DNA of 44,713 nucleotides from an uncultured Arenicella sp. (lineage in GTDB: Bacteria; Pseudomonadota; Gammaproteobacteria; Arenicellales; Arenicellaceae): the NCBI GenBank assembly GCA_937918955.1, contig CAKZRZ010000036.1:1-44713 (forward strand). The letters run 5' to 3'. The notes beneath the pieces are model-generated. The model did not search any database and was not told where the DNA came from. It worked only from the letters and a program-made list of their open reading frames with translations. Below are positions 17,512-37,086 of the stretch, one piece after another (position 1 is the first letter of the stretch; every line of letters begins with the position of its first letter). Made by a program: the position numbers and the translations under genes.

Positions 17512-18194
17512 TTTGACCACCTCAAAACACGCGCCTTAGGGTTAGCAGCATACACTATTATCAATAGAGCAAACGAGATAACTAATAAAGCAGAAGACAA
17601 CCAATGTGCGCTCGCAAGTTGCAAACTTTCAACATGCTGATATATAGCGATCGAAGCAACCTGGGTTTCGCCCGGGATGTTTCCGCCTATCATCAGCACT
17701 ACTCCGAATTCACCGAGCGTGTGTGCAAATCCAAGAATCATCGCCGACAAGAAGCCGGGTCGCGCTAAAGGCACAACAATCGAGCAAAAACGATCCATCG
17801 GCGAAGCGCCAAGGCTTGCCGCTACTTCTATTGGCCGAGTCCCAATTGCAACAAAAGCATTTTGCAGAGGCTGAATCACAAAAGGTAAAGAATATATCAC
17901 CGAGCCGAGCACCAAACCTGTAAACGAAAAGGCCAATGACTGACCAAAGACCGCTGCAAATGTTTGCCCTAGTAAGCTCGATGGGCTAAATGCCACCAAG
18001 AGATAGAAACCTAATACCGTTGGTGGTAAAACCAATGGCAGCGCCACCATGGCTTCGACCAAAAAACGAAATCGCCATTGTGAGTTGGCGAGCCACCAAG
18101 CCAGCGGCGTGCCCAACACCAACAAAACCAAGGTGCTAATACCGGCTAACTTCAATGTCAGAAAGAGTGCGACTAAATCGGCTTCAGAAAACAT
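17508..18194 (-). CDS. modB: Molybdate ABC transporter, permease
   Basis: A 228-residue inner-membrane permease with about five to six helices. The EAA loop that contacts ModC is visible as EVAASLGASPMDRFCSIVVPLARPG around residues 125-149 (start EVAASLGASP). ALPLVLPPTVLGFYLL and LGEFGVVLMIGGNIPGET are typical of ModB. Its ATG shares one base with the modA stop (TAATG), and GAGGG lies just upstream inside modA, so translation is coupled. Confidence 0.93.
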   Translation of the reverse strand: MFSEADLVALFLTLKLAGISTLVLLVLGTPLAWWLANSQWRFRFLVEAMVALPLVLPPTVLGFYLLVAFSPSSLLGQTFAAVFGQSLAFSFTGLVLGSVIYSLPFVIQPLQNAFVAIGTRPIEVAASLGASPMDRFCSIVVPLARPGFLSAMILGFAHTLGEFGVVLMIGGNIPGETQVASIAIYQHVESLQLASAHWLSSALLVISFALLIIVYAANPKARVLRWSK

Positions 18195-19015
18195 TAGCCG
18201 CCCTCAGATCTTCGATGGCGATCACTGGCACTGCGATACCCTCTCGATCGAATTAAACTCTGAGAGCTCTTGCTTAAAACAAAGTCACGCCATTGCCTTG
18301 CTGCCGGCGAATCGCTAACTATAATCAGTTGCTGATCAATCGGCGCATGTAAGTCTTCAGAAATTATTCGATACGATCCAAAGTCGAGATCTTTGACTTG
18401 TGCAAGCGCGAGCAGGCCCAGTTGTGCGCCGCCGCCATTAACAAATTGAAACGCTTGAGCAACACTCTCACCAAAAACCAGCTTAGGTTTTACGGCCAAT
18501 GCTTCGAGCACTTGCTCGGCCGCCAAACCATAGGGCGCAATCTTTGGGTTGGCGATGGAGACTATCTGTTCTTCTGATCTCGCAAAAATAGCGTTTAGAG
18601 CTTCGATTGAGACAGCTACTGAATAACTACTTGAAGCTTGAGAGCCACTTAAATCAGAGCTCGTTTCAAAAAAATCACTCTCGGCACTCCAAACAACCAA
18701 ACGCCCCTGTGCATAACTTTGTCTAGATCCTTTTAAGGCAAAACCGTTTTGCTCAAGCAATGTAGGCCTCTTGGCGTCAGCAGCCATAAAAACGTCAACG
18801 GCTAGGCCATATTGAATTTGCATGGTGTGCTTGCCACTGGAACCGACAAGCAAAGTAACCTTATGACCACTCTGCTGGGTAAATACTTCAACTAAAGCCT
18901 CAGCCGTGGTCGCGAAGTTGCTTGCCACCGCGACTTTTAAGTCAGCTGCTATTGCAGAGGAAGCGCCGAAAAGCGCAATGAACAAGATGCAATAAAACCG
19001 AAGCCATCGACCCAT
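18194..19015 (-). CDS. modA: Molybdate ABC transporter, periplasmic binding protein
   Basis: A 273-residue protein with a Sec signal peptide ending near AIA-AD (residue 23). The mature protein has the ModA features DLKVAVASNFA and LLVGSSGKHTMQIQYG, where the Ser residues bind the oxyanion, and VDVFMAADAKRP. It captures molybdate (possibly tungstate) for ModBC. Its start directly follows a 14-bp palindrome that covers the argB stop, and the nearest GAGG lies about 13 nt from the ATG, an unusually long spacing unless the palindrome folds. Confidence 0.93.
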   Translation of the reverse strand: MGRWLRFYCILFIALFGASSAIAADLKVAVASNFATTAEALVEVFTQQSGHKVTLLVGSSGKHTMQIQYGLAVDVFMAADAKRPTLLEQNGFALKGSRQSYAQGRLVVWSAESDFFETSSDLSGSQASSSYSVAVSIEALNAIFARSEEQIVSIANPKIAPYGLAAEQVLEALAVKPKLVFGESVAQAFQFVNGGGAQLGLLALAQVKDLDFGSYRIISEDLHAPIDQQLIIVSDSPAARQWRDFVLSKSSQSLIRSRGYRSASDRHRRSEGG

Positions 19016-19885
<870 letters not shown>

Positions 19886-20049
19886 TTATTAAATTAGAGT
19901 GTAAGTGGGGTTCTATAGCTCGAAGTATATCACCCTGAATAGCAAACGAGCAGCAATTCACACTTCGCAGCATATTGACATTTAGCGTGCGAAAATCCGC
20001 CAATTAAGAGCAATGAAGCATTAAATTTCCATGTTATTCGCTTATTTGA

Positions 20050-20078
20050 TTAAGCAGCGAAGTTTATTGCTTTATAAT
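20050..20078 (+). promoter_or_regulatory. Candidate sigma-70 promoter of the tripartite efflux operon
   Basis: A perfect TATAAT at 20073-20078 is preceded, after 17 nt, by TTAAGC (20050-20055), a weak -35. Expected transcription start is near 20085, giving an untranslated leader of about 80 nt before the ATG at 20165. A weak -35 with perfect -10 is compatible with activator control; no regulator gene lies next to the operon. Confidence 0.5.
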
Positions 20079-20164
20079 TCGTGTAAATTGAATCCATTAT
20101 GGCATCTCGAGCATCTAAAGATAATTGATCAACTATAGAGGCAATTGCTTTTCTCGAGGATATA

Positions 20165-21778
20165 ATGACATCTACCAATACCAATAACTCACTTGCGACA
20201 CTTGGCAACACTATGATTGACAGTGCTATGGACAGAACTAAGAGCAACAATATGAGTAGCGATGCAGCGTTTCCACTCAAGCAAAGCCTTCAAGCCGCAA
20301 GCTTGGCGGCGGTGCTAGTGTTATCTGGGTGTATGTCTAAAGTCGGCAATTTGCCAGAAGAGGCTCAAGTAAAGATACCTGAAACGTGGCAACCCGTTGA
20401 CACTGCGGTTAGCCCCTCGTCAGAAGAGTCGCAAAAGCAGCCTCCAAAGCCAGTTGTTGGCGGCTGGCTTAATAGTTTAAACGACGAGGCTCTTAATGCT
20501 CACGTCGAAAAAGCGCTGAAAAATAATCCTGATTTACTTGGATCAGCTGGACAACTCAAAAACGCTATTGAACAAGTCACTATAACCGGTTCGGGGCTTT
20601 GGCCACAGCTTCGCTTTAGTGTAGACGGCAGCACAAGAGAATCGAGTTCAGCTGCAGCAACTGGCGGTGCCGCTCAAGGCGACGCCGATAGCACTACAGA
20701 AATTCGCAGTATTGGCGGCACTCTAGGTGTTCAGTGGGAAATCGACATTTGGCGCAAACTAAGCCAACGCAAAAAAGCAGCCGCACTCGGAGCGCAAGCG
20801 CAAAGCGAACTGTATAAAGCAGCTGAATTGTCATTGGTAGCTAACGTTAGTCGAGCCTGGTACAACCTTGCCACTAATAAGTTACAACTTGACCTAGCGC
20901 AAAAACGTTTAGACAGTTTTCAAAATACCGCCAAGTTGATCGAAGAGAATTACGAACGCGGTCTTCGCTCTGCACTCGATGTATATTTGAGTCGCACCGA
21001 TGTGCAACTGCAAATTTCAGCATTGGCCGATTCGAAATTCAATTATGTGCAAGCTCTTAGAGCGTTGAAAACATTGCTTGGCGAATACCCAGATGCATCT
21101 ACGGAGCTGAACGTAAATTTACCTGAGCTCGCGTCATCAGTGCCAACGGGCTTGCCTGCAGACCTTTTAACTCGAAGACCTGACGTCAAAGCCAGCCAGC
21201 TTCAGTATCAAGCGCAAATTGCTAATGCGAAAGCTGCTCACCGAGACCGTTTTCCAAGCTTGAACTTCTCAGGTTCTATCGGCGAAAGCCGTGATACATT
21301 CAACAGTATCTTTGATAGCGATAACAGCATTCGTAATATTATCGGCTCGTTGACGCAACCGATCTTTGCTGCGGGAGCCTTAAAAGCGGAAGAACGCAGA
21401 GCCTACAACGACGCTGAAATTGCCTACGCTTCGTTACTCCAAACAACCTTAACGGCATTTGAAGAAGTTGAAAACTCGTTGACACGAGAGAATGTATTAT
21501 TCGAGCAACATCGGGCGATTAAAGAAGCTGTAAAGCTTGCGCAAGGTGGCTTGGATTTAGCGCTAGACCGCTATCAATCGGGCATTGAAAATTACACAAC
21601 TGTATTGCAGTCGCAGCGCAGTTTGTTCGACTCTTTGAGCAACGAACTTAACCTTCGCAATGCCTTACTGCAAAACCGTATTGGTATTCACTTGGCTCTT
21701 GGTGGCGACTTCGCTAGCGCAGAATCACGTGAAGCTGGAACTGTGCCAGCACCATCAATTGATAAACCAGACGATTAG
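20165..21778 (+). CDS. Outer-membrane efflux channel lipoprotein (NodT/OprM family)
   Basis: A 537-residue outer-membrane factor of a tripartite pump. VLVLSGC is a lipobox with Cys56; the ATG at 20165 has GAGGA about 6 nt upstream, but the ATG at 20252 would give a more usual 26-residue signal peptide and also has an AAGAG. Two OEP repeats follow (about 100-300 and 315-510), each with a long coiled-coil hairpin and the conserved LLTRRPDV segment between them. It forms the TolC-like duct for the adaptor and pumps encoded just downstream. First gene of the operon. Confidence 0.92.
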   Translation: MTSTNTNNSLATLGNTMIDSAMDRTKSNNMSSDAAFPLKQSLQAASLAAVLVLSGCMSKVGNLPEEAQVKIPETWQPVDTAVSPSSEESQKQPPKPVVGGWLNSLNDEALNAHVEKALKNNPDLLGSAGQLKNAIEQVTITGSGLWPQLRFSVDGSTRESSSAAATGGAAQGDADSTTEIRSIGGTLGVQWEIDIWRKLSQRKKAAALGAQAQSELYKAAELSLVANVSRAWYNLATNKLQLDLAQKRLDSFQNTAKLIEENYERGLRSALDVYLSRTDVQLQISALADSKFNYVQALRALKTLLGEYPDASTELNVNLPELASSVPTGLPADLLTRRPDVKASQLQYQAQIANAKAAHRDRFPSLNFSGSIGESRDTFNSIFDSDNSIRNIIGSLTQPIFAAGALKAEERRAYNDAEIAYASLLQTTLTAFEEVENSLTRENVLFEQHRAIKEAVKLAQGGLDLALDRYQSGIENYTTVLQSQRSLFDSLSNELNLRNALLQNRIGIHLALGGDFASAESREAGTVPAPSIDKPDD

Positions 21779-21816
21779 TACGATCTAACACCGAACAGCA
21801 GTGACTCCATAAAACT

Positions 21817-23355
21817 ATGAGTAGTAATGAAAATAACTCCGACTATGAGTTGAATCTTAACGACGGCGTCACTGAGCAAGAACGCGCTAGCTTTAGCGAA
21901 AGCACTAGCAATCTATTATATCGAGTTCCTCGAAAGTTGAGAATTGTGCTTAGCATTATCTTGCTTGCGGTGATCATTATTGGCTTACTCAATGCATTCA
22001 AGCCAGAGGCTCGTAAGCGCGCTATTCCTGAGACAGTAGTGCGTGTAGAGGTAATTACTGCCGAACCCAGCAGCTATCCAATTGTCGTTAACGCAAATGG
22101 TACGGTTGAAGCTGAAACTCGAGGCGACTTGGTTGCTCAAATTCGTGGTGAGATCGTTGCGGTATCAGACAACTTCAATACCGGTGGCAGCTTTAATAAA
22201 GGCGATGTGCTGATTCAGTTGGACCAGCGCGATTATCAGGCTGATCTAAGCCAAGCACTGGCAAGCTTATCCCAAGCCGATGCAGCCTATCGCCAAGAAC
22301 AAGCTACCGCGAAACAAGCAGAGCAAGATTGGAAGCGTCTCGGCAACACCGAGCCCGCACCTGATTTAGTATTGCGCAAGCCGCAGCTCACAGCGGCCAA
22401 AGCTCAATTTGATTCAGCTAAAGCGGCGGCCGACAGTGCGCGTTTAAATCTAGATCGCACAACCATCAAAGCACCGTACAACGGCCGCATTATCGAGCGC
22501 AAAGCCGTACTAGGACAATATGTTAGCGTTGGCACAGCCATTGCCGAAGTATTTGCAACCGATGGAGTGGAAGTACGCTTACCGATCAGCCAGGAAGAGT
22601 ATAGTCAGCTAGGATTAGATTCGTTTTCAAGCGAACCGGGTGCGGACAACCCATTTACCGTGTCAATTACATCTACGGTTGGCAATCAAGGATTTCAGTG
22701 GGATGCGAAAATTACCCGTACCGACAGCACGTTTGACATTAATACGCGGCAAATCGATGTAGTCGCCAAAGTCGCTGACCCGTTTGGTAAATTGAGCGGC
22801 CAGAGAGCTCTTAAAATAGGCCAGTTTGTTAGTGCCCGAATACAAGGGCGCACCGTCGATGATGTTTTTGTCATCCCAAATAAAAGTATTCGCGAAGGCA
22901 GTTATGTTTACACGGTACGTGATGGAAAACTTGCCAAACAAAGTATCAACATTGTGTGGCAAGACGATCAAAACGCCCTGCTTAGCCAAGGCTTAAGCAA
23001 TGGCGAGCTGGTAGTAACAACATCTTTGAACAGCACATTAGCAGGCGCAAGTGCAAAGTTTGATGAGGCAGTCTCAGAGAAGAGCTCTGCAGATACGAAT
23101 AAAGCAGTAGCCGATACTGAAGGCTCTTTAACCGCGCTTGAGCAAGATAAATCTGAGAATGCTGAATCAGCCTCGCCTGTTTCAAGCGAGAACCTTGATG
23201 ACTTAGAACAAGATGCTACGACGCTACCTGTAGCGCCTCAACAAACTGAGCTGGATAGCGTCATCGAAGCTGTTGAAGACGCCGCCGAAGACATCAAAGC
23301 AGATGCCAATCAAGCCGTTGAAACGGTAAGCGCCGACAACGGCCTGTCTCAGTAA
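21817..23355 (+). CDS. RND efflux periplasmic adaptor (AcrA/HlyD family) with acidic C-terminal tail
   Basis: A 512-residue membrane fusion protein. A 41-residue hydrophilic N-terminus precedes one membrane helix (about 42-60), so it is a bitopic anchor rather than a lipoprotein. The lipoyl-like halves are at about 95-140 and 205-235 (TIKAPYNGRI), with the coiled-coil hairpin between them, then beta-barrel and membrane-proximal domains to about 410. Residues 418-512 are an extra Glu/Asp/Ala/Ser-rich tail with roughly two dozen acidic residues against four lysines; common adaptors end near residue 400. It links the channel encoded upstream to the three RND pumps encoded downstream. Confidence 0.9.
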   Translation: MSSNENNSDYELNLNDGVTEQERASFSESTSNLLYRVPRKLRIVLSIILLAVIIIGLLNAFKPEARKRAIPETVVRVEVITAEPSSYPIVVNANGTVEAETRGDLVAQIRGEIVAVSDNFNTGGSFNKGDVLIQLDQRDYQADLSQALASLSQADAAYRQEQATAKQAEQDWKRLGNTEPAPDLVLRKPQLTAAKAQFDSAKAAADSARLNLDRTTIKAPYNGRIIERKAVLGQYVSVGTAIAEVFATDGVEVRLPISQEEYSQLGLDSFSSEPGADNPFTVSITSTVGNQGFQWDAKITRTDSTFDINTRQIDVVAKVADPFGKLSGQRALKIGQFVSARIQGRTVDDVFVIPNKSIREGSYVYTVRDGKLAKQSINIVWQDDQNALLSQGLSNGELVVTTSLNSTLAGASAKFDEAVSEKSSADTNKAVADTEGSLTALEQDKSENAESASPVSSENLDDLEQDATTLPVAPQQTELDSVIEAVEDAAEDIKADANQAVETVSADNGLSQ

Positions 23356-23432
23356 GAAAACGCATCGCCTAACAACTTAACAAGCGCTGCTTTGACAGCC
23401 AGATTACGCTGTGAATATGAGCACTAACACAA

Positions 23433-26400
23433 ATGATTGAATGGTTTGCTCGTAACCCAGTAGCCGCCAACCTCCTGATGATAACCATCGTTGTCGTCGG
23501 CTTATTCTCGGCATCGCGTTCTATTCCTTTAGAAGTTTTCCCCAGCTTCGAAGTCGAAGCCGTTAATGTATCGACCGCATATCGAGGTGCTACGCCACGA
23601 TCAATCGAAGACGGTGTTACCAAACGTATTGAAGAAGCGATTTACAATATCGAAGGTGTCGACGAGATCAATTCGAGATCGTCCGAAGGACTGTCAGTGG
23701 TGACCGCACAGGTCGCAGATGGTTATGAAAAGCGAGAAATACTCAACGACATTAAGCTAAAGGTAGACGCCTTAAGTACTTTACCTGGAACCGCTGAAAA
23801 GCCGGTTGTATCGCTTTCGACTATCAACCCAGGTGTGATTCAAGTAGCCGTAGTCGGTGAGGTAGACGAAAAAGTATTGCGCATCACGGCCGATCGCGTT
23901 CGCGATGACCTGCTAGCGAATAACAACCTCACCTTAGTTGAGTTGATAGGCGTGCCAAACTATGAAATCAGCGTCGAGGTTGCACCGCAAACACTCGACG
24001 ATTTCAACTTGTCATTGCAAGACGTCAGCGAAGCAATTCAACGAAGCTCGGTTGATATTTCAGCTGGCAACGTGAAAACACGCGACGGTGATATATTAGT
24101 TAGAGCTGACGGCCAAGCGTACCAACAACAAGACTTCGCTGCGATTCCGGTGATTACCGCTCTCGGCGGGGACCCCGTATTATTAGGCGAAATCGCCACA
24201 ATTAATAATGGATTTGAAGACCAACCATTAATTACCCGCTTTAACGGCAAGCCTGCCATATTGATTGATGTCGCCCGCACCGGTAAACAATCGTCTATTG
24301 AAATTGCGTCCACTGTTCGAGAATACATCGAAACCGAAAACCGCCAGCTTAACAATGGCGTTAGCCTTGATTTCTGGGATGACGACTCTAAAGTTCTTAA
24401 AGGCCGCTTAAACACATTGCTGAGCAGTGGCCTTTACGGCGGGCTATTGGTGTTGCTCATTTTATCTTTGTTTTTACGCCCGGCGATCGCGTTTTGGGTA
24501 TTCCTAGGCGTACCTGTCAGCTTTATGGGCGCCTTCATTTTCATGCCCTTGGTTGGCGGCACTTTCAACATGATATCGCTGTTCGCTTTCATAACGGTAC
24601 TCGGGATTGTCGTTGACGACGCCATTGTCACTGGTGAAAATATTTATTCGAAAATGCGTGATGGCATGGAGCCAATCAAGGCTTCAATCATAGGCACTAA
24701 GGAAATAGCGATTCCGGTTACCTTCGGCATTTTGACCACTGTCGTCGCATTTTTGCCGATGGGCGACCTCGGAGCCAACCGCACGGGTTTTCTTGCTGCG
24801 CAAATTCCAATGGTAGTTATTCCAGTATTGCTATTCTCGCTGATCGAATCAAAATTAGTACTGCCATCGCACCTTAGCCATATCAAACCGCGCAAAGAGG
24901 CCGCTAAATCTGCCTGGCTTTCGCGCATGCAAATGGCGGTGTCCCGTGGCTTCGAAGATTCGATAATACGTTTCTATAAACCTTTTTTAGCGCGATGTTT
25001 GTCCAATCGAGCCATTGCGATTGCAGCTTTATTGGCTACATCAGCCATAGTTGTTACTTGGGCGAGCACGGGCCATTTAAAGTTCACCTTCTTTCCAAGG
25101 GTCGAATCTGAGGAAATTCAGTTCACTCTGACCATGCCGGATACAACCGGTTTTGAAACCACCAGAGCGCATATCAAGATAATCTCGGACCATGTTCATA
25201 CTTTACAAGATAAGTACCGCGACCCTAAGACAGGAATATCGGTAATACGCCACACCTACAGTACAGTCGGCAGTAGTGGCTCAACGATAAAGCCCAGCGT
25301 GGGCGTAGTACGAGCCGAATTAATTGGGCCAGAAGAGCGACACATCGATATCAAAGCGTCTGAAATCGCTAGAGAAGTTCGGGCATTAGTTGGAGAGATA
25401 CCCGGTGCCGAACAGCTCAGTGTAAGAGCCGAGCTAGGGCGCGGAGGCGAACCAATTAATGTTGAGCTCAGTGGTGGCGACCCGCTAAAAATGCAGTTCA
25501 TCGCCGACAAAGTGCGAAAACAATTGCTCAGATATCCTGAAGTGTTCGATATTCAGGACAACTATTCAGGCGGTAAAGAAGAACTCAATATTGAACTCAA
25601 ACCACGCGCGCACGCGTTAGGCTTAAGTCTCGCAGACATCGCTAATCAAGTTCGCGGTTCGATTTTTGGCTTTGAGGCACAGCGCTTGCAACGAGGCCGA
25701 GAAGAAGTGCGCGTGATGGTACGCTTGCCAGAAGAGCATCGTTCGTCGATAGATGATCTTTCGCGGCTATCAATATTGGTTGGCCCTAGCAATGAGGCAA
25801 TTCCGCTGTCTGATCTTGCGGTGATAACCCCCGTACGTAGCCCAACTACACTCTATCGCTTGAACCGAAAAGGCATCTTAAACATTACCGCTGATGTTGA
25901 TAAAGAACTTGCCGATGTGCCTGCAATTTTGTCGGAGATACGTGCCTTTCTTAACCAAGAGACACAGTCTGATCCAAGCATCAGCTACACTTTCAAAGGT
26001 GAAGCTGAAGAGCAGTCTGAGAGCAATGAAGGTTTAAAGTCAGGAAGCTTACTAGTGTTGATAGCGATCTATGCACTACTGGCAATACCGTTTAAATCGT
26101 ACTTGCAGCCATTTATTGTGATGTCAGTTATACCATTTAGTTTAGTTGGCGCGGTACTTGGCCACATCATCACCGGCTACGACCTATCAGTTTTAAGTAT
26201 CGTCGGCATGATGGCTTTACTCGGAGTGGTAGTGAACGACAGTTTAGTTTTAGTCGATTACATCAACAAACAACGCGAAAAAGGTATTGAGGTCTATCAA
26301 GCGGTGCTCAATAGCGGGGCAGCGCGTTTTCGACCAGTGATGCTTACATCGATAACCACCTTTGCCGGCCTTACGCCACTGCTATTGGATAACAGCACAC

Positions 26401-26594
26401 AATCTCAGTTTTTAAAACAAATGGCCATCTCGCTCGGGTTTGGCATTGTCTTCGCCACCATCATCACCTTAATCATAGTGCCAATTAACTATTATCTTGG
26501 TTACCAGGTAAAACATGGTGTGATTCGCCTATGCAATACCGCATGGGCAAGTTGGTTAGAATTTTGGAATCGTGAAGATGTGCGACGGAGCTAG
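23433..26594 (+). CDS. RND efflux permease, first of three paralogues
   Basis: A 1053-residue HAE1-type inner-membrane pump with the usual twelve helices and two large periplasmic loops. N-terminus MIEWFARNPVAANLLM is typical of this subgroup. The TM4 pair Asp395-Asp396 (GIVVDDAIVTGENIY) is present. In TM10 the AcrB motif with Lys940 is replaced by VVNDSLVLVDY with Asn935-Asp936; the following RFRP Arg and LTS Thr are kept. It takes substrate from the periplasm or inner membrane using the proton gradient. Translation starts at the only suitable ATG, with a weak ribosome site. Substrate unknown. Confidence 0.92.
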   Translation: MIEWFARNPVAANLLMITIVVVGLFSASRSIPLEVFPSFEVEAVNVSTAYRGATPRSIEDGVTKRIEEAIYNIEGVDEINSRSSEGLSVVTAQVADGYEKREILNDIKLKVDALSTLPGTAEKPVVSLSTINPGVIQVAVVGEVDEKVLRITADRVRDDLLANNNLTLVELIGVPNYEISVEVAPQTLDDFNLSLQDVSEAIQRSSVDISAGNVKTRDGDILVRADGQAYQQQDFAAIPVITALGGDPVLLGEIATINNGFEDQPLITRFNGKPAILIDVARTGKQSSIEIASTVREYIETENRQLNNGVSLDFWDDDSKVLKGRLNTLLSSGLYGGLLVLLILSLFLRPAIAFWVFLGVPVSFMGAFIFMPLVGGTFNMISLFAFITVLGIVVDDAIVTGENIYSKMRDGMEPIKASIIGTKEIAIPVTFGILTTVVAFLPMGDLGANRTGFLAAQIPMVVIPVLLFSLIESKLVLPSHLSHIKPRKEAAKSAWLSRMQMAVSRGFEDSIIRFYKPFLARCLSNRAIAIAALLATSAIVVTWASTGHLKFTFFPRVESEEIQFTLTMPDTTGFETTRAHIKIISDHVHTLQDKYRDPKTGISVIRHTYSTVGSSGSTIKPSVGVVRAELIGPEERHIDIKASEIAREVRALVGEIPGAEQLSVRAELGRGGEPINVELSGGDPLKMQFIADKVRKQLLRYPEVFDIQDNYSGGKEELNIELKPRAHALGLSLADIANQVRGSIFGFEAQRLQRGREEVRVMVRLPEEHRSSIDDLSRLSILVGPSNEAIPLSDLAVITPVRSPTTLYRLNRKGILNITADVDKELADVPAILSEIRAFLNQETQSDPSISYTFKGEAEEQSESNEGLKSGSLLVLIAIYALLAIPFKSYLQPFIVMSVIPFSLVGAVLGHIITGYDLSVLSIVGMMALLGVVVNDSLVLVDYINKQREKGIEVYQAVLNSGAARFRPVMLTSITTFAGLTPLLLDNSTQSQFLKQMAISLGFGIVFATIITLIIVPINYYLGYQVKHGVIRLCNTAWASWLEFWNREDVRRS

Positions 26595-26665
26595 CTTAAA
26601 AATGCAATGCCCGCTCTCTATTTTCACGCAAGACTTTTGCGGTCTAAGATATTTAAGGTGCCTTC

Positions 26666-29600
26666 ATGATTGAGTGGTTTGCGAAAAATCCTGTTGCCTC
26701 AAACTTGCTGATGTTCGGCATCTTAATCGCCGGTTTAACCACCGCAAGCCGCTCTATTCCTGTTGAAACGTTCCCATCGTTTGAATTGGATACAGTTACC
26801 GTTAACACACAGTTTCGTGGTGCCACACCGAAGACCGTAGAAGACGGTATCACGTTACGAATTGAAGAAGCGATCGCCGACGTAGAGGGCATCGAAGAGC
26901 TTACCTCGCGTTCATCTGAGGGTAGCTCAGTAGTCATCGCCGAGGTTAATGACTCATATAACAAGCGAGATGTACTTGATGATATAAAAGTTCGCGTCGA
27001 TGCTCTTAATACCTTACCAACTGAAGCTGAAAGACCAACAGTAGCACTCAACACGCGCAATCGAACGGTTATTTGGGTAGCCATACAAGGTGAGGTTGAA
27101 ACCACAGTATTACGCAGCGTTGCAGGCCAGTTTAGGGAGGGTTTACTTAGCCATGACCAAATCAGTACAGTTGAGCTTCAAGGTGTCGCTGAGTATCAAA
27201 TGAATATCGAGGTTTCTCCTCAAACGCTCGACGCTTATAACTTAAGCTTAGCGCAAATTGGTCAAGCAATTCGAGCCGGTGCTAGCGATGTCTCAGCGGG
27301 AAATATTCAAACGCGTAATGGCGATATCTTGGTGCGCAGCGCTGGCCAAGCCTACACTCGTGATGAATTCGCAGCCATACCCATTCTGTCTAACTCACAG
27401 GGCAACCCGATCACCTTAGGCGACATAGCCAAAATCGATGACGGCTTTGAAGAACAATCATTGATAACCACATTTAACGGCACACCTGCGATTATGGTTC
27501 AGGTGCGTCGTGTCGGTGAACAAAGTGCGTTGCAGGTTGCTGAGTTGACTAGGGATTACATGGCTAAGTTTGCCGAAAACCTACCATCGGGCGTCAGTAT
27601 CGATTATTGGGATGATGACACTACATACTTAAAAACTCGCATCGGCGCGGTGCTAGACAGTGCTTGGCTGGGCGGAATCTTAGTGATGATTCTGCTGTCA
27701 CTTTTTTTACGTCCGGCGGTTGCAGGCTGGGTATTTTTGGGTATTCCTGTGAGCTTTATGGGGGCGTTTTTGTTTATGCCTCAGGTTGGCGGTACGTTCA
27801 ACGTGGTCAGCTTGCTCGCCTTTATTATGGTGATCGGGATTGTTGTCGATGATGCCATTGTCACCGGTGAGAATATCTATCGACGGATGCGCGAAGGCAT
27901 GGACCCAAAGCAAGCGGCGGTTGTCGGCACCCAAGAAATTACCGTGCCAGTTACTTTTGGCATTCTAACCACCGCGGTCGCATTTTTACCCTTAGGTTAC
28001 CTGCATGGCACGCGCTATGACTTTATCGGCAGTCAAATGCCAATGGTTGTGATCCCCGTTTTATTGATGAGTTTGGTCGAGTCAAAGCTAGTATTACCAT
28101 CACACATGAGCCACATCAAAGCGCGTGATGAAAACGGTGAGATTGGGCTACTTGGCCGAACTCAGCAAGGAATTTCGCGAGGCTTAGAACGCTTTGTCGA
28201 AAACATTTATTCGCCGTTTCTACATAAGTGCGTCAATAACAAGGGCATTACCGTCACCCTGCTTCTATCCGTTTCAATCATTGTAGTAAGCGCAATTTCG
28301 CTCGGGCATATTCGCTACACGCCGTTCCCATACGTAGAGTCCGACACAGTTCGCGTGAATCTTACAATGCCTGAATCAACCGGTTTCGAAACCACGAATA
28401 AACATATTCAAGAAATCGTTGAACATTTTAAAACAATTCAAAAGAAGTACACTAATCCTGAAACCGGTGAGAGTGTGATTATGAACATACTCGCCACTAG
28501 CGGCAGCCAGGGGCGTACGACTAAGAGCAACCTAGGCGCAGTGCGTGCAGAACTACAAACGTCAGGTGAGCGATATGGCAATATCAAGACTTCACAAATC
28601 GGACGAGAAGTGCGCAAGCTTATAGGAGAGATTCCTGGCGCACAGAGTTTAAGTGTTCGCTCACGTAGATTTGGAGACCAAGCTGCAATTAACGTAGAGC
28701 TTTCAGGCGATGATCCGGCAAAAATGTATGAGGTTATTGAAAAACTTAGAGAGCGATTTAAAAGCTACCCTGGTGTGTACGAGATTCAGGATAACTACTC
28801 CGGTGGCAAAGAAGAACTGAGCCTTAGCCTTAAGCCGCGGGCGTACACACTCGGCTTAACTCTCCGCGATGTCGCCTCTCAAGTACGCAATGCGGTATTC
28901 GGCTTTCAAGCACAGCGAATTCAGCGTGGCCGAGATGAACTTCGCGTCATGGTTCGCTATCCGCTTGAATATCGTTCATCAATGCAAGATTTGAACCAAT
29001 TGGCGATTAGAGTACCCAATAGTGACGAACCTGTGCTGCTATCGGATATCGCTGAAGTCGAACCATTCGAAAGCCCAAGCACTTTATATCGCCTTCAGCG
29101 TAAATCAATTTTAAATATAACCGCAGATGCAGATAAAGACGTTGCTAATTTGCCGTTGATTCTACAAGAGGTAGAGGCCTATCTAATAGAACAACAGCAA
29201 CAGTATTCGAATCTTCAATTTCGCTTCGATGGAGAAGCTGAAGACGCACGCGAAACTAATCAGCGCCTTGGCACTGGTTTAATTTTAGTGCTCATCGCTA
29301 TTTATGCTCTATTGGCAATTCCATTTAAATCTTACGGCCAGCCATTAATCGTTATGTCAGTAATCCCGTTTGGTATAATTGGCGCTGTGATGGGGCACTT
29401 TATAACAGGACAAAACCTATCGGTACTAAGTGTCTTTGGGATACTCGCCTTAGTCGGAGTAATGGTCAACGACAGTTTAGTATTAGTCGATTATATCAAC
29501 AAGCGTCGTCAACGAGGGGTTGAACTAATTGAAGCGGTACTTACGTCTGCGGCGATTCGGTTTAGACCGGTAATACTTACTTCGATCACAACATTTGCCG

Positions 29601-29830
29601 GTTTAGCACCGATATTACTTGATGGCTCTCAGCAAGCGAAATGGCTGAAGCCAATGGCTACCTCACTCGCGTTTGGTATTGTGTTCGCAACGATAATCAC
29701 CTTATTAATCATACCGATTAACTATCTTTTGGCGCACAAGTTTAAATACTTGTGTCTAGATGGCGGTACCAAGTTGTGGACGACCTGGCTAGACTTTTGG
29801 AACAAAGAAGATGTTCGCCCAAGTAACTAA
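26666..29830 (+). CDS. RND efflux permease, second of three paralogues
   Basis: A 1054-residue HAE1-type pump, clearly the closest relative of the first copy (same N-terminal ASRSIPxExFPSFE stretch, RGATP loop and C-terminal FWN-KEDVR). Asp395-Asp396 in TM4 are present, and Asn935-Asp936 again stand where AcrB has Lys-Asn. The 71-nt gap from the first pump holds no gene or terminator, so the genes are co-transcribed. It could form its own homotrimer or mix with the other two subunits, as MdtB and MdtC do. Confidence 0.92.
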   Translation: MIEWFAKNPVASNLLMFGILIAGLTTASRSIPVETFPSFELDTVTVNTQFRGATPKTVEDGITLRIEEAIADVEGIEELTSRSSEGSSVVIAEVNDSYNKRDVLDDIKVRVDALNTLPTEAERPTVALNTRNRTVIWVAIQGEVETTVLRSVAGQFREGLLSHDQISTVELQGVAEYQMNIEVSPQTLDAYNLSLAQIGQAIRAGASDVSAGNIQTRNGDILVRSAGQAYTRDEFAAIPILSNSQGNPITLGDIAKIDDGFEEQSLITTFNGTPAIMVQVRRVGEQSALQVAELTRDYMAKFAENLPSGVSIDYWDDDTTYLKTRIGAVLDSAWLGGILVMILLSLFLRPAVAGWVFLGIPVSFMGAFLFMPQVGGTFNVVSLLAFIMVIGIVVDDAIVTGENIYRRMREGMDPKQAAVVGTQEITVPVTFGILTTAVAFLPLGYLHGTRYDFIGSQMPMVVIPVLLMSLVESKLVLPSHMSHIKARDENGEIGLLGRTQQGISRGLERFVENIYSPFLHKCVNNKGITVTLLLSVSIIVVSAISLGHIRYTPFPYVESDTVRVNLTMPESTGFETTNKHIQEIVEHFKTIQKKYTNPETGESVIMNILATSGSQGRTTKSNLGAVRAELQTSGERYGNIKTSQIGREVRKLIGEIPGAQSLSVRSRRFGDQAAINVELSGDDPAKMYEVIEKLRERFKSYPGVYEIQDNYSGGKEELSLSLKPRAYTLGLTLRDVASQVRNAVFGFQAQRIQRGRDELRVMVRYPLEYRSSMQDLNQLAIRVPNSDEPVLLSDIAEVEPFESPSTLYRLQRKSILNITADADKDVANLPLILQEVEAYLIEQQQQYSNLQFRFDGEAEDARETNQRLGTGLILVLIAIYALLAIPFKSYGQPLIVMSVIPFGIIGAVMGHFITGQNLSVLSVFGILALVGVMVNDSLVLVDYINKRRQRGVELIEAVLTSAAIRFRPVILTSITTFAGLAPILLDGSQQAKWLKPMATSLAFGIVFATIITLLIIPINYLLAHKFKYLCLDGGTKLWTTWLDFWNKEDVRPSN

Positions 29831-29944
29831 CAAGTTGCTAAGGTGTTTAGTGCTTTTTTATAGCGCCATTCTAAGCAATGCAAAGACTCGGTAAAGACAT
29901 GCGAACAATGATGCCATTTTACGTACAAACAATCGGAGCCCAGA

Positions 29945-32900
29945 ATGATTGAATGGTTTGCTAAAAATCATGTCGCGGCTAACCTACTGATGTTTTGCAT
30001 CATGATAATGGGTTACAACGCGGTCAAGAACGACGTTGCGCTCGAACTTATGCCAGACTTCGCGTTAGGGGTAATCACCGTCACCACTATACTGCCGGGC
30101 GGCAATCCAGAATCAATTGAGGCAACCATCACCGCTCGAATTGAAGAATCTGTTGCTGACCTAGAAGGAATTAAAAAAATCACATCAAGGTCCGCCGAAG
30201 ATGTGTCTGCTGTATCTATCGAAGTAGAATCAGGCTATGACGAGAAAGCCTTATTAAGTGATGTTAAAAACCGCGTCGACTCGCTCAGCACCTTGCCGGT
30301 TGACGCCGAGCGCCCCGTTATTGATCTAGCCGATCTACCAATACAAGTGGTCGGCATTGCAGTCTACGGAGATGTTGACTACGACCTACTGTATAAAACC
30401 ACCTCAGACATGCGAGAGGCATTGCTGCAGGTTGATGGCATCACTCAGGTCGGACCGGTCCAGGCCCCAGAACGAGAAATTCAAATTGAAACGAGCCCCG
30501 AAGTTTTAAAACAGTACGGCCTCACTCTAAGAGATATTGGCGCAGCGATTCAGCGCAATGCCATAGATATTTCCGCTGGTAACTTACGCACCAGCAATGG
30601 AGATATCTTGGTTCGAACAAACGGGCAAGCGTTTAGCAAACAAGAGTTCGAAGCCATTCCGGTTTTTAATTCCGGTGACCGTGTACTGTATATAAAAGAC
30701 TTAGCTACCGTAGTCGACGGATACGAGTTACGTCGAGTCGAAACTCAGTATGGAGGCTTGCCGGCGATCACTGTAGAAGCTTTTCGAGTTGGCAACCAAA
30801 GTACCATCGACATCGCGAACAAAGTATTCGATTTCATACGTGAGTATGAAAAGACTTTGCCACAAGGTATTAAACTCGGCAACTACGGAAACACCTCAGC
30901 GGTAGTCGAAGACCGCTTGTCAACCTTGGTAAGCAGTGCAATTCAAGGCGGCATATTAGTGCTCGTACTACTATCCTTATTTCTGCGCCCAGCTGTCGCT
31001 CTTTGGGTAGGCCTTGGAATACCGGTCTGCTTTTTAGGTGGTTTGGCCATGATGCCAATTCTCGGTTTAAGTATGAACATGCTCACCATGTTCGCCTATC
31101 TTCTAGTACTCGGAATTGTAGTCGACGATGCGATTGTCACCGGTGAAAATATATATCGACATCAACGCAACGGTATGTCCCCTGCTGATGCAGCACTCTT
31201 TGGCACCAAAGAAGTGGCCGTTCCTGTAACCTTTGGTGTAATCACCACCATGGTCGCGTTTGCTCCCTTACTATTTGTCGAAGGTGTGCTATCGGATCTC
31301 GCCAAACAAATTCCACTGGTCGTAATTCCGGTACTAGCGTTCTCGCTGATTGAATCAAAACTTATTCTACCCTCGCACATGAGCACCATTAAGCCTCGCG
31401 ACGAAAACAATATTCGAGGTCTAGGAAGGATCCAGCAGAATTTCTCTCGCGGCTTCGAAAGCGCCATCATCAAGTTGTACCGCCCATTTTTAAATGCTTG
31501 CATTTCAAACAAAACCATCACCATTGTTAGCGCATTCATGGTTTTTGTGATTACCATCTATTCAATGACAAGCGGCTGGCTACGCACCTCTTTCTTTCCA
31601 GAATTTGAAGACAATGCGGTATTTATCACCCTAACCATGCCAGCAACAACTGGCTATGAGACAACTAAGGGCCACGTGGTGCGTATTGTTGATATTGCCA
31701 GCGAACTCGCAGATGACTATCTCGACCCAGAAACTGGCGAGTCTTACTTCAAATACATTGTTTCAATTGCTGGTCTTAAAATAGGCCCAACCGGTCCAAC
31801 GTTCGGCAACAATCAAGGCATGGTAGTAATGGAGTTTGTTCAAGGCGAAAATGGTTTGCCTGAAGGTTTTTCGATTCGCAAGGTACAAGACCAACTACGC
31901 GCAAGAATTGGCGAAATACCCGGTGCTGAAAAACTCAGCTTGAGCTCTACGTTTGGTGACTTTGGCGCTCCACTATCAGTTTCTCTATACGGGAAAGACA
32001 TTGAACGTATCGAGGTGATAAAGGATGAGATTCGAGAGTATTTGCGTACCTACCCCGGCGTTTTTGATATTCAGGATAATTTATCTAGCGGTAAAGAAGA
32101 ACTCAAACTAGAAATAAAGCCACTCGCGAACACCTTAGGGCTATCGCAACAAGAAATCGCTAGTCAAGTGCGTCAAGCTTTGTTCGGTTTTGAAGCTCAG
32201 CGTATTCAACGAGGCCATGAAGAAATTAAAGTAATGGTGCGTTATCCGCTGGAATCTCGTTCATCAGTACCCGACGTCAATAATATTCCGATTAACACAC
32301 CCAATAGCACCGACACCATTCCACTATTTGAACTAGCCGATTTGTTACCATCACAAGCCGCAAGTTCGATTTACAGAGACAAGCAGCGCAGAGCCGTCAC
32401 TGTCACCGCAGACATTAATGCAGATGAGTACGATGTAACTGTAATACGTCAAGATTTGGTCAAGTACCTCGATGAAAAATTTATCTATGAGCCTGAAGTA
32501 ACTTATGAATTAGGTGGTCAAGCCGAAGGCCAGAATGACGCTAACGCAAGTTTTGCGCTTGGCTTTATCTTGGTGATCATTCTTATTTACGCTCTCTTAG
32601 CAATTCCGTTTAAATCGTTCGGCCAGCCTTTTGTGGTTATGTCGATCATTCCGCTGGCAATAGTAGGAGCAATCATCGGCCACTATACTATGGATCTGGC
32701 GTTTTCAATGTTAAGCATCATGGGAATGCTCGGGCTAACGGGAATTGTAGTTAATGACAGCTTGGTGTTGGTCGACTATATCAATCAAAAGCGTAAAGAA
32801 GGCGTGCCGCTAATGGAGGCAGTGCTAACGGCTGGTGAGACACGTTTCAGACCCGTTATTTTAACGTCACTAACAACGTTTGTTGGCTTGCTGCCGCTAA

Positions 32901-33109
32901 TGTTAAACCAAAGCACACAAGCGCAGGCGTTGATACCAATGGCCGTGTCGCTGGGTTTTGGCATTATTTTTGCAACCGTAATCACTTTGGTTATAACTCC
33001 AGTGAACTATTTGATTGGTCGTAGCATCAAATATGCTTTCCTTCGATTTTTTAAATGGATTGGCCGCGTTTGGAACGGTAGTCCGCGCCAAGAACGTTTG
33101 AATGCATAA
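29945..33109 (+). CDS. RND efflux permease, third and most divergent paralogue
   Basis: A 1054-residue HAE1-type pump. It shares the MIEWFAKN start, Asp394-Asp395 in TM4 and Asn937-Asp938 in TM10 with the first two, but the first periplasmic loop differs: PGGNPESIEA replaces RGATPxxxED, and LELMPDF replaces xExFPSF. The C-terminus lacks the FWNxEDVR end. GGAG lies about 8 nt before the ATG, a better ribosome site than the first pump has. A 114-nt gap separates it from the second pump. No terminator is seen until the repeats at 33131. Confidence 0.92.
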   Translation: MIEWFAKNHVAANLLMFCIMIMGYNAVKNDVALELMPDFALGVITVTTILPGGNPESIEATITARIEESVADLEGIKKITSRSAEDVSAVSIEVESGYDEKALLSDVKNRVDSLSTLPVDAERPVIDLADLPIQVVGIAVYGDVDYDLLYKTTSDMREALLQVDGITQVGPVQAPEREIQIETSPEVLKQYGLTLRDIGAAIQRNAIDISAGNLRTSNGDILVRTNGQAFSKQEFEAIPVFNSGDRVLYIKDLATVVDGYELRRVETQYGGLPAITVEAFRVGNQSTIDIANKVFDFIREYEKTLPQGIKLGNYGNTSAVVEDRLSTLVSSAIQGGILVLVLLSLFLRPAVALWVGLGIPVCFLGGLAMMPILGLSMNMLTMFAYLLVLGIVVDDAIVTGENIYRHQRNGMSPADAALFGTKEVAVPVTFGVITTMVAFAPLLFVEGVLSDLAKQIPLVVIPVLAFSLIESKLILPSHMSTIKPRDENNIRGLGRIQQNFSRGFESAIIKLYRPFLNACISNKTITIVSAFMVFVITIYSMTSGWLRTSFFPEFEDNAVFITLTMPATTGYETTKGHVVRIVDIASELADDYLDPETGESYFKYIVSIAGLKIGPTGPTFGNNQGMVVMEFVQGENGLPEGFSIRKVQDQLRARIGEIPGAEKLSLSSTFGDFGAPLSVSLYGKDIERIEVIKDEIREYLRTYPGVFDIQDNLSSGKEELKLEIKPLANTLGLSQQEIASQVRQALFGFEAQRIQRGHEEIKVMVRYPLESRSSVPDVNNIPINTPNSTDTIPLFELADLLPSQAASSIYRDKQRRAVTVTADINADEYDVTVIRQDLVKYLDEKFIYEPEVTYELGGQAEGQNDANASFALGFILVIILIYALLAIPFKSFGQPFVVMSIIPLAIVGAIIGHYTMDLAFSMLSIMGMLGLTGIVVNDSLVLVDYINQKRKEGVPLMEAVLTAGETRFRPVILTSLTTFVGLLPLMLNQSTQAQALIPMAVSLGFGIIFATVITLVITPVNYLIGRSIKYAFLRFFKWIGRVWNGSPRQERLNA

Positions 33110-33130: not shown

Positions 33131-33205
33131 ATCCTTCGACTTCGCTCAGGATGACGGCTAATTGGCTCAGGGTGACGGCTAATTCGCTGAGGATGACGGT
33201 TAGTA
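33131..33205. repeat. Hairpin plus three 21-nt tandem repeats after the efflux operon
   Basis: An ATCCT/AGGAT hairpin (33131-33135 with 33148-33152) opens a block of three 21-nt units at 33143-33163, 33164-33184 and 33185-33205. Units share the core GCTnAGGrTGACGGyTA. The first resembles the dispersed 'CCTTCGACT...CAGGATGAC' intergenic repeat that I recall from many bacterial genomes. TGACGGCTA-like copies also occur at 40821-40860. The block sits between convergent operons and has no T-run. Confidence 0.65.
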
Positions 33206-33680: not shown

Positions 33681-34685
33681 TTAGTCAGGTTCAATTTCAG
33701 CGCCAACACGCCGTTTTAGCAGACCATAGAACGCTTGCTCTGCAGTACGCCTCCCCGCAATAACCTCATGCACATCTTGTGCTATCGGCATTTCAACATT
33801 GTATTTCTCGGCCAACTTAACGACCGTTGGCGCACTCTTTACGCCCTCAGCGACCATGACCATGTCTTGGATGATTGCATCGATGTTTCGTCCCTTACCG
33901 AGTTCTAAACCTACATGATGATTTCTGCTTTGCGAGCTAATACAGGTTGCGAGCATATCGCCCATGCCGGTTAACCCCGAGAAGGTTTCGGCTCGGCCTC
34001 CAAGTGCAACCCCAAGGCGAGTGATCTCTGCTAAACCGCGTGTAATCAAGGCAGACCGAGTATTGTCTCCAGCACCTAAACCAATACCCATACCAACGGC
34101 GATAGCAATTATGTTTTTTAGAACTCCGCCAAGCTCACAACCTACAACATCGTTGTTGGTGTAAACGCGGAATACACCGGAATTAAAAATCTTTTGTAGC
34201 TCTTTGACGATGATCTCGTCGTCCATGGCGATTACGCTCGCCGCCGCTTGGCCAGCCATGATTTCGCGCGCCAAATTTGGACCAGTTAGCACTCCCACCG
34301 GGTGGCCGGGTAACTCAGATTCAATAATTTGAGTCATGCGCAAATCAGAGCCGCGCTCCAAACCCTTTGTAAGGCTCACTATCGGCACCCAAGGTCTTAG
34401 ATGTGGACGTACGTCTCGTAGCACATCACGAAATGAATTAGACGGAACCCCCATGACTAGAACATCGGCAGTAGCCACTACGTCTTCGATTTTCTCGTGT
34501 GCAACAAGGTTTTTAGGTAATTTAGCGCCTGGCAAATATTTCTCATTAGTGTGCTTGTTATTTATTTCTCGCACCGTTTCTGCACTGCGGGCCCACATAG
34601 ATACATCAGTATTGTGCGCAACTAAAGAAGCCACCGTTGTGCCCCATGAACCGCCGCCAATCAGACCTACTTGTAGCTTTCTCAT
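33681..34685 (-). CDS. gpsA: Glycerol-3-phosphate dehydrogenase [NAD(P)+]
   Basis: A 334-residue enzyme that reduces dihydroxyacetone phosphate to sn-glycerol 3-phosphate, the backbone of phospholipids and triacylglycerol. GLIGGGSWGTTVA (7-19) is the dinucleotide loop, SLTKGLERG and LTGPNLAREI form the middle motif, GVLKNIIAIAVGMG holds the catalytic Lys, and NTRSALITRGLAEI the substrate Asn-Thr-Arg. Placed 56 nt after the PlsB-like gene, it supplies that enzyme's acyl acceptor. Confidence 0.95.
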   Translation of the reverse strand: MRKLQVGLIGGGSWGTTVASLVAHNTDVSMWARSAETVREINNKHTNEKYLPGAKLPKNLVAHEKIEDVVATADVLVMGVPSNSFRDVLRDVRPHLRPWVPIVSLTKGLERGSDLRMTQIIESELPGHPVGVLTGPNLAREIMAGQAAASVIAMDDEIIVKELQKIFNSGVFRVYTNNDVVGCELGGVLKNIIAIAVGMGIGLGAGDNTRSALITRGLAEITRLGVALGGRAETFSGLTGMGDMLATCISSQSRNHHVGLELGKGRNIDAIIQDMVMVAEGVKSAPTVVKLAEKYNVEMPIAQDVHEVIAGRRTAEQAFYGLLKRRVGAEIEPD

Positions 34686-34741
34686 TTTCGAGCTCTCTCT
34701 ATTATTGTTAACCGTTGACGACCGTAAATGCCTAACATTCG

Positions 34742-37066
34742 CTAGCTCTCAAGATCATTAGGCATTGCCAAAGCCCGAATTTGCTCGACCCGATGAGACA
34801 AAATTCGCAACTCCTTACTCATCTTTTTTCGACGTTCTACAAGATCTTCGCCATCTACCGCGACCAATCCATAGCTGTCGAGCAATTTATAACCGTTCTT
34901 AAACAGTATTTCACCAATAGAGGCTTTACTACTAATACGACGCTGCAAATAAGCTTGCCGTCCATACTTAAATGAGGCTGATACAACCGCCTTTTGATCC
35001 AAGGTTTCTTTTGGCCCAAGGCTAGCAAACACATCAGCGACAATTCGATACGCTTCGATATAAGGTTTTAAACTACAATGCGCCACTAGGGGAGTCATGG
35101 TTCTGAGCATTGTTAAGAGCTCGTGACGATTGCTCATTTTTGATTCCCAATCATCACTAAAATGATTCAACTCAGCTCGGATGCTCTCTTGGAATTCGTC
35201 TGTTGCTTCGTAAAAGAACTCAAACTTAAACATATCTTTTAGACGATCAGCAGCATGCCAGAACGCAGACAATGGGTCCTCACTCGCATTTGCCGCTTCA
35301 ACCAAGCTCATCTCGGCAATCGCCTTGGCAACGAAATGATGCACGATGGTGTTGCGATAATAGCTTGCCATAGCGTGTTGATCCGCCGCTACGGCGTACA
35401 CTGTTTCGGGTCCTTCATCGTAGCGATTTATCAATTCAGAGTTCACCATATTAGTGATTAACTCCTCCATGTGATCATTATTATCGCCATCAAAATCACT
35501 GGTGAAACGAATATCCCTATTCTTAGACCATTCGCGCAATGCACGCATGCTATCTTCTAACTCTTCGATGGTTTGTGCGCGCGGAGCGGCTCCGAGTAAA
35601 GATAGCGACATCAACGAAGTCAGCGTTATCGGCGTAACACGATTAGCCTCTACACCGATTTTGAATGCAGTCTTTTGTAGTGCCAAGGGGTCGTCATCAA
35701 AACTCGATTTTTTAACCACGACCGGTTCGCCAAAGTCGATGTAGATTCTCCCTAAAGGCTGGCGCATGCGTCGCAAATACGAGATAAACCAACTCAACGA
35801 CTCAGGGCGTTTTATCGCGCCACTTTGCTCGGCGGCGTAATCCTTAACGTCATTATTCATGTCGTAATTGATTGCTACAGGTATCAAGTGTAGGTCGTCA
35901 GAGCTAGAGTGCTCCATCGCATCCATCACATATTTCAACATACCATAACGCGGCGGCATCAGTTTGCCAACACGCGAGCGAGTTCCTTCAAACGACCACG
36001 TTAACGGAAAGCGCTTCTCTAATAAGTATGAGAGATACTCGCGTAAAACGAGTTTGTAGAGTGGGTTATCTTGAAACGATCGTCGAATAAAAATTGCGCC
36101 GGAACGGCGAGCTAAAAAGCCAACGCCAGCGAACGCCATATTAATACCGCCCATGGTATGCGGTGGCGGAAAGTCATGCTCAAATAATACCGACTGCATG
36201 GTAATGCCGTCCATATGTGTTTTATGAGTCCACAACAGTGCCGTCGGATGCTCACGCACAATCGAGCGAAAGCGTTCAAGCTTTTCGGTATCGACCACCA
36301 CTTTATTTTCATAGCCAAGTGAAATGACCCAGCGATTAAATGCACCAGCAACGTCTTGCCAAAAGTTGTGTGGCGTAGCCACCAACTCTTTGAAATATGG
36401 AAGAGCCTTGCTACGCAATTCAGACTCAGTCTTTCCGGTCTTCTCGGCAATCTCAAGTAAGCCTGCCCTATAACGATCACTCGCACGAACCTGTTTAGAA
36501 ACCTGGGTTGGCACTTTGTAACGGCTTCCACGTAAACGACGCTCAGCAACTTCTAAAGCTAAGCTCGCTTGTTCGGCAACATATTCAGCAAGGTCTGAAT
36601 CAATCTGGGTAATCTTACGTCGCTGATCATAACGCTCAGACAAATCACCAACCGTCGCGGGCTTACCTAAAATACAGAGCGCGCGCGAAGGGTCAGAGTC
36701 AATGATTTTCTGCGCCTTTTTCTTGTTTGGCAATCTAGAGTTTCCACGCAACAAGTCTCTAAACTTAGGCTTACTGGTAATAGGCTGACCATTAATCCCA
36801 TCAAACTGAGTTTTCCAAACTACTCGAACCGGTAGAACTAGAGTTTCATTAGGCACCTGCAATGCCATCTGCAATGCTTGCGTTGGAATATTGTCTGGAT
36901 CATGAGCAATAGGTACAACGCAATGACTGACCGTACCAGAAAAACCATGTTGCGCCTTGGTGTTATTGAGCCATTGAAGCAGCAATTGCTCCTCTACGTC
37001 ATGTTCAGCATCGATGATGAAGAGAACTTGCTCTGACTCGATTTTTTCCCAAGGATTGATGATCAT
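34742..37066 (-). CDS. Glycerol-3-phosphate acyltransferase, PlsB family
   Basis: A 774-residue PlsB-type enzyme, close in length to E. coli PlsB (about 800). The catalytic HX4D box is HKTHMD (281-286). GAIFIRRSF (323-331) and FEGTRSRVGKL (359-369) are the glycerol-phosphate and acyl binding blocks, and SLMSLSLL follows as in PlsB. It acylates sn-1 of glycerol 3-phosphate using acyl-CoA or acyl-ACP at the inner membrane. The position between a HAD/PlsC fusion and gpsA parallels the plsB2-plsC gene pair of mycobacteria and suggests a dedicated storage-lipid enzyme rather than the housekeeping one. The ribosome site is weak; the start is 20 nt after the previous stop. Confidence 0.9.
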   Translation of the reverse strand: MIINPWEKIESEQVLFIIDAEHDVEEQLLLQWLNNTKAQHGFSGTVSHCVVPIAHDPDNIPTQALQMALQVPNETLVLPVRVVWKTQFDGINGQPITSKPKFRDLLRGNSRLPNKKKAQKIIDSDPSRALCILGKPATVGDLSERYDQRRKITQIDSDLAEYVAEQASLALEVAERRLRGSRYKVPTQVSKQVRASDRYRAGLLEIAEKTGKTESELRSKALPYFKELVATPHNFWQDVAGAFNRWVISLGYENKVVVDTEKLERFRSIVREHPTALLWTHKTHMDGITMQSVLFEHDFPPPHTMGGINMAFAGVGFLARRSGAIFIRRSFQDNPLYKLVLREYLSYLLEKRFPLTWSFEGTRSRVGKLMPPRYGMLKYVMDAMEHSSSDDLHLIPVAINYDMNNDVKDYAAEQSGAIKRPESLSWFISYLRRMRQPLGRIYIDFGEPVVVKKSSFDDDPLALQKTAFKIGVEANRVTPITLTSLMSLSLLGAAPRAQTIEELEDSMRALREWSKNRDIRFTSDFDGDNNDHMEELITNMVNSELINRYDEGPETVYAVAADQHAMASYYRNTIVHHFVAKAIAEMSLVEAANASEDPLSAFWHAADRLKDMFKFEFFYEATDEFQESIRAELNHFSDDWESKMSNRHELLTMLRTMTPLVAHCSLKPYIEAYRIVADVFASLGPKETLDQKAVVSASFKYGRQAYLQRRISSKASIGEILFKNGYKLLDSYGLVAVDGEDLVERRKKMSKELRILSHRVEQIRALAMPNDLES

Positions 37067-37086
37067 ATTTATTATTGTTTGCCTTT

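Follow-up and report, generated by a model that had tools for sequence, protein, structure and literature searches.

How can three different full-length permeases share a single adaptor and a single outer membrane channel? The question is raised by an efflux operon in a 44,713-nucleotide stretch of DNA (the window; contig CAKZRZ010000036.1) from an uncultured Arenicella sp., for which an earlier note had proposed either a one-of-each heterotrimer, with protomers specialised in different steps, or alternative pumps on a shared duct. A known precedent is the tandem RND pair with one adaptor that works as MdtB2C (PMC12802153, PMC7015380); what makes a second kind of permease necessary in some RND pumps has been described as unclear (PMC12802153). 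In a systematic survey, tandem permeases were confined to the MdtBC clade and attributed to a single ancestral duplication (203 tandems among 6205 RND proteins; PMC10872679).

Organization of the operon and its surroundings

The efflux operon consists of five genes placed head to tail, all on the + strand (20165-33109), as read from the open reading frames and their translations. It opens with a NodT/OprM-type outer membrane channel (OMF) of 537 aa (20165-21778; TIGR01845 at 263 bits against a cut-off of 210, and also PF02321), followed by an RND periplasmic adaptor (MFP) of 512 aa (21817-23355; RND_mfp, TIGR01730, above cut-off) and by the permeases RND1 (23433-26594, 1053 aa), RND2 (26666-29830, 1054 aa) and RND3 (29945-33109, 1054 aa), all three of which match PF00873 full length (1-1022; E 1e-161 to 1e-166). 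A complete tripartite RND efflux system, with channel, adaptor and permease, is encoded together here. Successive genes are separated by 38, 77, 71 and 114 bp; the motif scan gave no + strand terminator-like or promoter-like match in the two gaps between permease genes (26595-26665 and 29831-29944), and no second adaptor gene lies between the three permeases. Open reading frames and family scans agree, in these respects, with the single run of channel, adaptor and three full-length permeases, lacking a terminator or second adaptor, that the earlier note had described. Its view that the first two permeases are close relatives and the third divergent is matched by the identities, 58% between RND1 and RND2 and 46% between RND3 and either of them. 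Of the span that it gave, 20050-33109, the operon is real, but 20050-20164 is upstream non-coding sequence. These positions belong to the intergenic region between the operon and a divergent amino-acid-kinase gene (19886-20164), presumed to be the promoter region of the operon; no match to the sigma-70 consensus was found in it upstream of the channel gene.

Several features of the locus are recorded as observations in their own right. The adaptor is longer than in most single-RND relatives (~380-450 aa) and carries a long, acidic-rich C-terminal tail dominated by Asp, Glu, Ala and Ser. Upstream of the operon lies an ABC importer (16435-19015) with a TOBE ATPase, a permease and a binding protein (ModABC-like), and several other Arenicella loci likewise have the gene for the binding protein on the upstream side. 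Just after the operon, at 33141-33199, a 21-bp repeat (TTCGCTCAGGATGACGGCTAA) occurs in 2.8 copies; its core has two near-matches, with 2 mismatches, elsewhere in the genome. A conserved lipid-synthesis block adjoins the operon on the same side (33681-40817), encoding glycerol-3-phosphate dehydrogenase, GPAT, a HAD-acyltransferase and a wax ester synthase/DGAT; all four genes were seen in three-RND loci, and two-RND loci likewise showed the dehydrogenase and GPAT genes.

Family placement of the permeases

The permeases belong to the RND superfamily (ACR_tran, PF00873), as seen in the full-length match, the RND fold and the TM4 and TM11 residues. A predicted model of RND3 (pLDDT 81; TM ~0.8-0.85 against MtrD, AcrB, AcrD and AdeJ) backs the overall fold only, the docking hairpin being its weakest part, with pLDDT under 50 at 210-221. 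The label HAE1-type, applied earlier, did not survive: scores are about 302-333 bits on the curated HAE-1 model (TIGR00915), far from its cut-off of 940, and also fall below the cut-off of the curated HME (CusA/CzcA) model (TIGR00914; 302-316 bits versus 701). In a tree with few E. coli references, the subfamily forms its own clade (100/100), apart from AcrB/AcrD/MdtB/MdtC (100/98), and CusA groups with G000_C145 in a separate clade. The same tree joins MdtB and MdtC as sisters (100/100) on the AcrB side, away from all Arenicella RNDs, and the Arenicella tandem appears not to descend from the MdtB/MdtC duplication. Because published tandems are confined to the MdtBC clade and this subfamily lies outside it, the Arenicella tandem represents an independent origin. 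The gene arrangement of the MdtBC type, in which one operon holds adjacent RND paralogues and only one adaptor gene, is present here with three permeases.

The Lys-Asn pair in TM10 of AcrB is essential for proton coupling. At the corresponding positions (AcrB Lys940-Asn941), Asn-Asp is invariant in 97/97 subfamily proteins, so proton coupling may differ from that of AcrB. The equivalents of AcrB D407, D408, R971 and T978 (the TM4 Asp pair and the TM11 Arg and Thr) are likewise present in 97/97, and since no copy departs from the others in these proton-path residues, each can be active and no protomer looks dead; a dead or proton-path-deficient protomer was ruled out on this ground.

Copy number in Arenicella and its relatives

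Our genus sample comprised 18 Arenicella genomes; most genomes in the analysis are metagenome assemblies. The order RND1-RND2-RND3 occurs in 10/18 (that of the window and nine others) and exactly two permeases, arranged OMF-MFP-RNDa-RND3, in 7/18, one genome (G006) being too fragmented to score. Six of the nine other three-RND loci run uninterrupted on one contig; the others are cut inside the adaptor (G014), split over two contigs (G009) or a fragment (G016). The identical order in independent assemblies rules out an assembly artefact, and its conservation in nine further genomes, three of them partly on contig fragments, makes it more than chance. The survey that the earlier note had called for thus finds the channel-adaptor-RND-RND-RND order in ten genomes. 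Two- and three-RND operons are flanked alike, by the amino-acid kinase upstream and by gpsA and acyltransferase genes downstream where the contig reaches far enough and the gene was found, and these common neighbours identify them as one inherited locus. Copy number is steady within clades (three in 10/10, two in 7/7). In all seven two-RND operons, the end of the RNDa gene overlaps the start of RND3, by 4 bp in five operons, by 1 bp in another and by 52 bp in the last, a pattern expected if the two are translated together at a constant ratio.

Outside the genus, a single RND follows the adaptor (OMF-MFP-RND) in nine relatives from the same order. In the sister genus (G018, L056), an orthologue of RND3 is accompanied by the end portion of another RND; between these two RND genes lies an opposite-strand open reading frame of 298 aa (L056:7726-8622), with no Pfam match, and this interposed gene argues against a fixed stoichiometry in that genus. 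Nearly all of ~40 further subfamily loci from the class pair an adaptor with a single RND. In another gammaproteobacterial family, one genome (G351:C141; L074:5330-16117) carries adaptor-RND-RND-RND, with permeases of 1060, 1060 and 1062 aa that form their own clade (100) and branch as ((1,2),3), the third earliest, as in Arenicella. This triple, which rests on a single draft assembly and was not seen in two relatives from the same family, appears to represent a second, independent origin. A sample across the phylum, with the subfamily present in 47 of 398 genomes and only the two best matches per genome scored, held no other adjacent matches, and among the sampled genomes tandems are limited to Arenicella, G018 (two) and G351 (three), the survey of triples covering this subfamily alone among the RND clades. 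A Terriglobia genome has two nearby adaptor-RND pairs (L033:763-13081), each permease with its own adaptor.

Order of duplications and loss

In trees built from 49-74 proteins, RND3 is one clade that divides into the two-RND species and the three-RND species, while RND1 and RNDa are sisters (98/97), with RND2 outside that pair. A clade of RND1 and RND2 only was rejected by the AU test (p-AU 0.0012), and polarised sites number nine for RND1+RNDa, five for RND2+RNDa and none for RND1+RND2; on both counts, we discarded RND2 as a late duplicate confined to the three-RND clade. RND2 and RNDa as sisters were weakly rejected (p 0.044). Three of four segment trees give RND1+RNDa (84, 97, 92) and the last segment (861-1020) does not; with no clean breakpoint, RNDa was also dismissed as a recombination chimera. 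That weak rejection and the deviating last segment indicate that past exchange between copies may have occurred. The trees show that RND3 split off first and that RND1 and RND2 duplicated later, before the two Arenicella clades separated; RND2, the copy missing from the two-RND clade, was therefore lost once, in the ancestor of that clade, and RND1 is the orthologue of RNDa. The RND3 orthologue in the sister genus likewise places the first duplication, from one permease to two, before the genus Arenicella. The earlier note had held that free loss of single copies would tell against a heterotrimer: loss is not free, given the stable counts in both clades, but it did befall RND2 once. The three intact genes are under strong purifying selection, with dN/dS against the nearest species of 0.034 for RND1 and 0.020 for RND3; for RND2 against its closest relative, dN is 0.055 and dS is saturated.

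Drug pocket, docking hairpin and trimer interface

Pocket and hairpin positions come from aligning the sequences with AcrB, to which identity is ~20-25%. Over 14 positions assigned to the deep pocket in the AcrB literature, mean hydropathy is +1.6 to +2.7 in 16/16 RND3 proteins and at most 0.09 in RND1, RND2 and RNDa. When porter columns were drawn at random, 0/2000 sets reached this difference of 2.59 (null 0.12, sd 0.53). The aliphatic RND3 pocket has, for example, A at 571, F or Y at 573, L at 615, F at 620 and mostly I at 628, in contrast to the pockets of RND1 (polar and acidic), RND2 (polar) and RNDa, with D at 327 and E or T at 571; position 573 is mostly R in RND2 and RNDa. RND3 is the changed copy, since its pocket is 14% identical to those of single-RND relatives, compared with 32% for RND1 and RND2 and 30% for pairs of single RNDs. 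Its hydropathy is approached by only 3/50 single-RND relatives, and a hydrophobic pocket of the RND3 type is thus unusual but not unique. The divergent porter loop noticed earlier in RND3 is real, and the divergence extends over the whole deep pocket.

Docking-hairpin similarity between RND1 and RND3 is 0.64, versus 0.52 in 404 control pairs matched for overall identity, their pocket similarity is 0.16 versus 0.30 in the same controls, and an alike hairpin combined with an unlike pocket is found in 0.5% of the 404, the control pairs and the paralogue pairs not being independent. For RND1 and RND2, pocket similarity (0.42, versus 0.45 in controls) is as expected for their overall divergence. 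MdtB and MdtC, a proven heterotrimer, lack the conserved-hairpin signature (hairpin similarity 0.29 at 0.50 overall identity), so the signature is not diagnostic of a heterotrimer; with this failure of the positive control, we dropped the conserved hairpin as proof of co-assembly. Interface specialisation was also set aside, as positions fixed to three different residues in the three permeases are few (10/1009) and do not clearly cluster where protomers meet in the trimer. At the pore-helix counterpart of AcrB V105, RND1, RND2 and RND3 have N, D and S, respectively, a weak lead only, given that single RNDs too vary between D and N there.

How the permeases may assemble

Our preferred reading, to which we assign a probability of about 50%, is that the permeases form mixed trimers on one duct, with RND3 as one protomer type and RND1 and RND2 as the other. 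A single ancestral permease gene gave rise, through two tandem duplications, to the three-permease operon, and in the scheme that we propose the products would act as proton-driven inner-membrane trimers on a common adaptor and channel. The usual trimer would combine RND3, with its hydrophobic pocket, and RND1-type protomers, with a polar, charged one. In the two-RND clade, RNDa and RND3 would make a trimer like MdtB2C, and in the clade of the window RND2 could stand in for an RND1-type protomer, giving up to one of each, a composition that would not have to be obligate. Such a mix of pockets could widen or split substrate handling inside one rotating trimer. Mixed trimers are favoured by the MdtB2C precedent, by the RNDa/RND3 gene overlap in 7/7 and by the likeness of the RND1 and RND3 hairpins. 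They are disfavoured by the missing hairpin signal in MdtB/MdtC, by the separated genes of the sister genus, by the homotrimers, reported inactive, that MdtB alone also forms and by the permease genes of the window lineage, which do not overlap.

The pocket difference, the strongest signal that we obtained, is also what subfunctionalised separate pumps would show, and the operon may instead encode three alternative homotrimeric pumps on one adaptor and channel, with RND3 for hydrophobic compounds and RND1 and RND2 for polar or charged ones, a strong alternative that we rate somewhat below mixed trimers. It easily accommodates the loss of RND2 in one clade with the rest kept, and the opposite-strand gene between the RND genes of the sister genus points the same way. 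Sharing of one adaptor by several RND pumps is known (PAP-pump promiscuity; PMC6975555). AcrA, for instance, works with both AcrB and AcrD. Separate pumps fit less well with a copy number that is stable per clade rather than fluctuating among species and with the gene overlap in all two-RND operons, and heterotrimers are what PMC10872679 describes for the characterised one-operon tandem pairs (MdtBC, MuxBC and SmeJK).

An obligate heterotrimer of one copy each, in which every permease keeps to one position and is specialised in one step of the cycle, would suit three genes for a trimer, an order conserved in ten genomes and the same ((1,2),3) branching in the independent G351 operon. We nevertheless judge it quite improbable: a whole clade, of seven genomes at the same locus, lives without RND2, all three permeases share the same proton-path residues, the RND1 and RND2 pockets are as alike as overall divergence predicts, and the three-way fixed positions lack a clear focus at the interface. 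Of the earlier readings, one adaptor and channel for three different full-length RNDs stands, and an obligate one-of-each arrangement finds no support for the lineage; specialisation in different steps draws indirect support from the pocket difference but none from the proton path, which does not differ between copies. For the clade of the window itself, a one-of-each heterotrimer carrying three different pockets on a common proton engine, reached from a single-RND pump via an A2C1 intermediate extant in the sister species, is in our estimation unlikely. Tandem duplication is mechanically easy, and the copies could do the same job and be retained by chance; none of our results favours this, however, and RND2 is kept with intact frames in all genomes of its clade down to ~63% identity, the paralogue-specific pockets are fixed and purifying selection is strong, which makes such redundancy or drift scarcely believable.

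Comparison with known systems

Three permeases per operon is a new count. No three-RND operon was found in the open-access literature, and the "three AcrB-like" pumps of Caulobacter were rejected as a precedent, as their genes are at separate loci. Among the closest systems are the uncharacterised single-RND operons of the subfamily in Gammaproteobacteria and other Pseudomonadota, which share the TM10 N-D and mostly 38-52% identity, and which mostly have the order OMF-MFP-RND or MFP-RND, with one permease each. The single-RND operons of the order and the Arenicella operons make up a natural series in which permease number rises from one to three, the members with two and three sharing a chromosomal site in a single genus. 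With paralogues of opposite pocket chemistry, this series allows a direct test of whether mixed trimers came before specialisation and of whether a single rotating trimer can house unlike pockets.

With AcrAB-TolC and MexAB-OprM, the Arenicella system shares the RND fold, the TM4 DD, the TM11 R and T, and an adaptor and channel, and the RND3 deep pocket is hydrophobic like that of AcrB; those systems, however, have one permease, as a homotrimer, and a conserved TM10 lysine that the Arenicella permeases lack. The resemblance to MdtABC of E. coli, MuxABC-OpmB and SmeIJK lies in adjacent full-length RND paralogues in one direction, with one adaptor that the first permease adjoins, and the identities between paralogues are similar (46-58% in Arenicella, 50% for MdtB/MdtC). 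In contrast to MdtABC, the Arenicella operon has three permeases instead of two, a separate phylogenetic origin and N-D in TM10, where MdtB/MdtC and AcrB have K-N. MdtABC is a proven heterotrimer; the Arenicella pump, a putative one, offers a second, unrelated system in which conclusions drawn from MdtBC can be checked.
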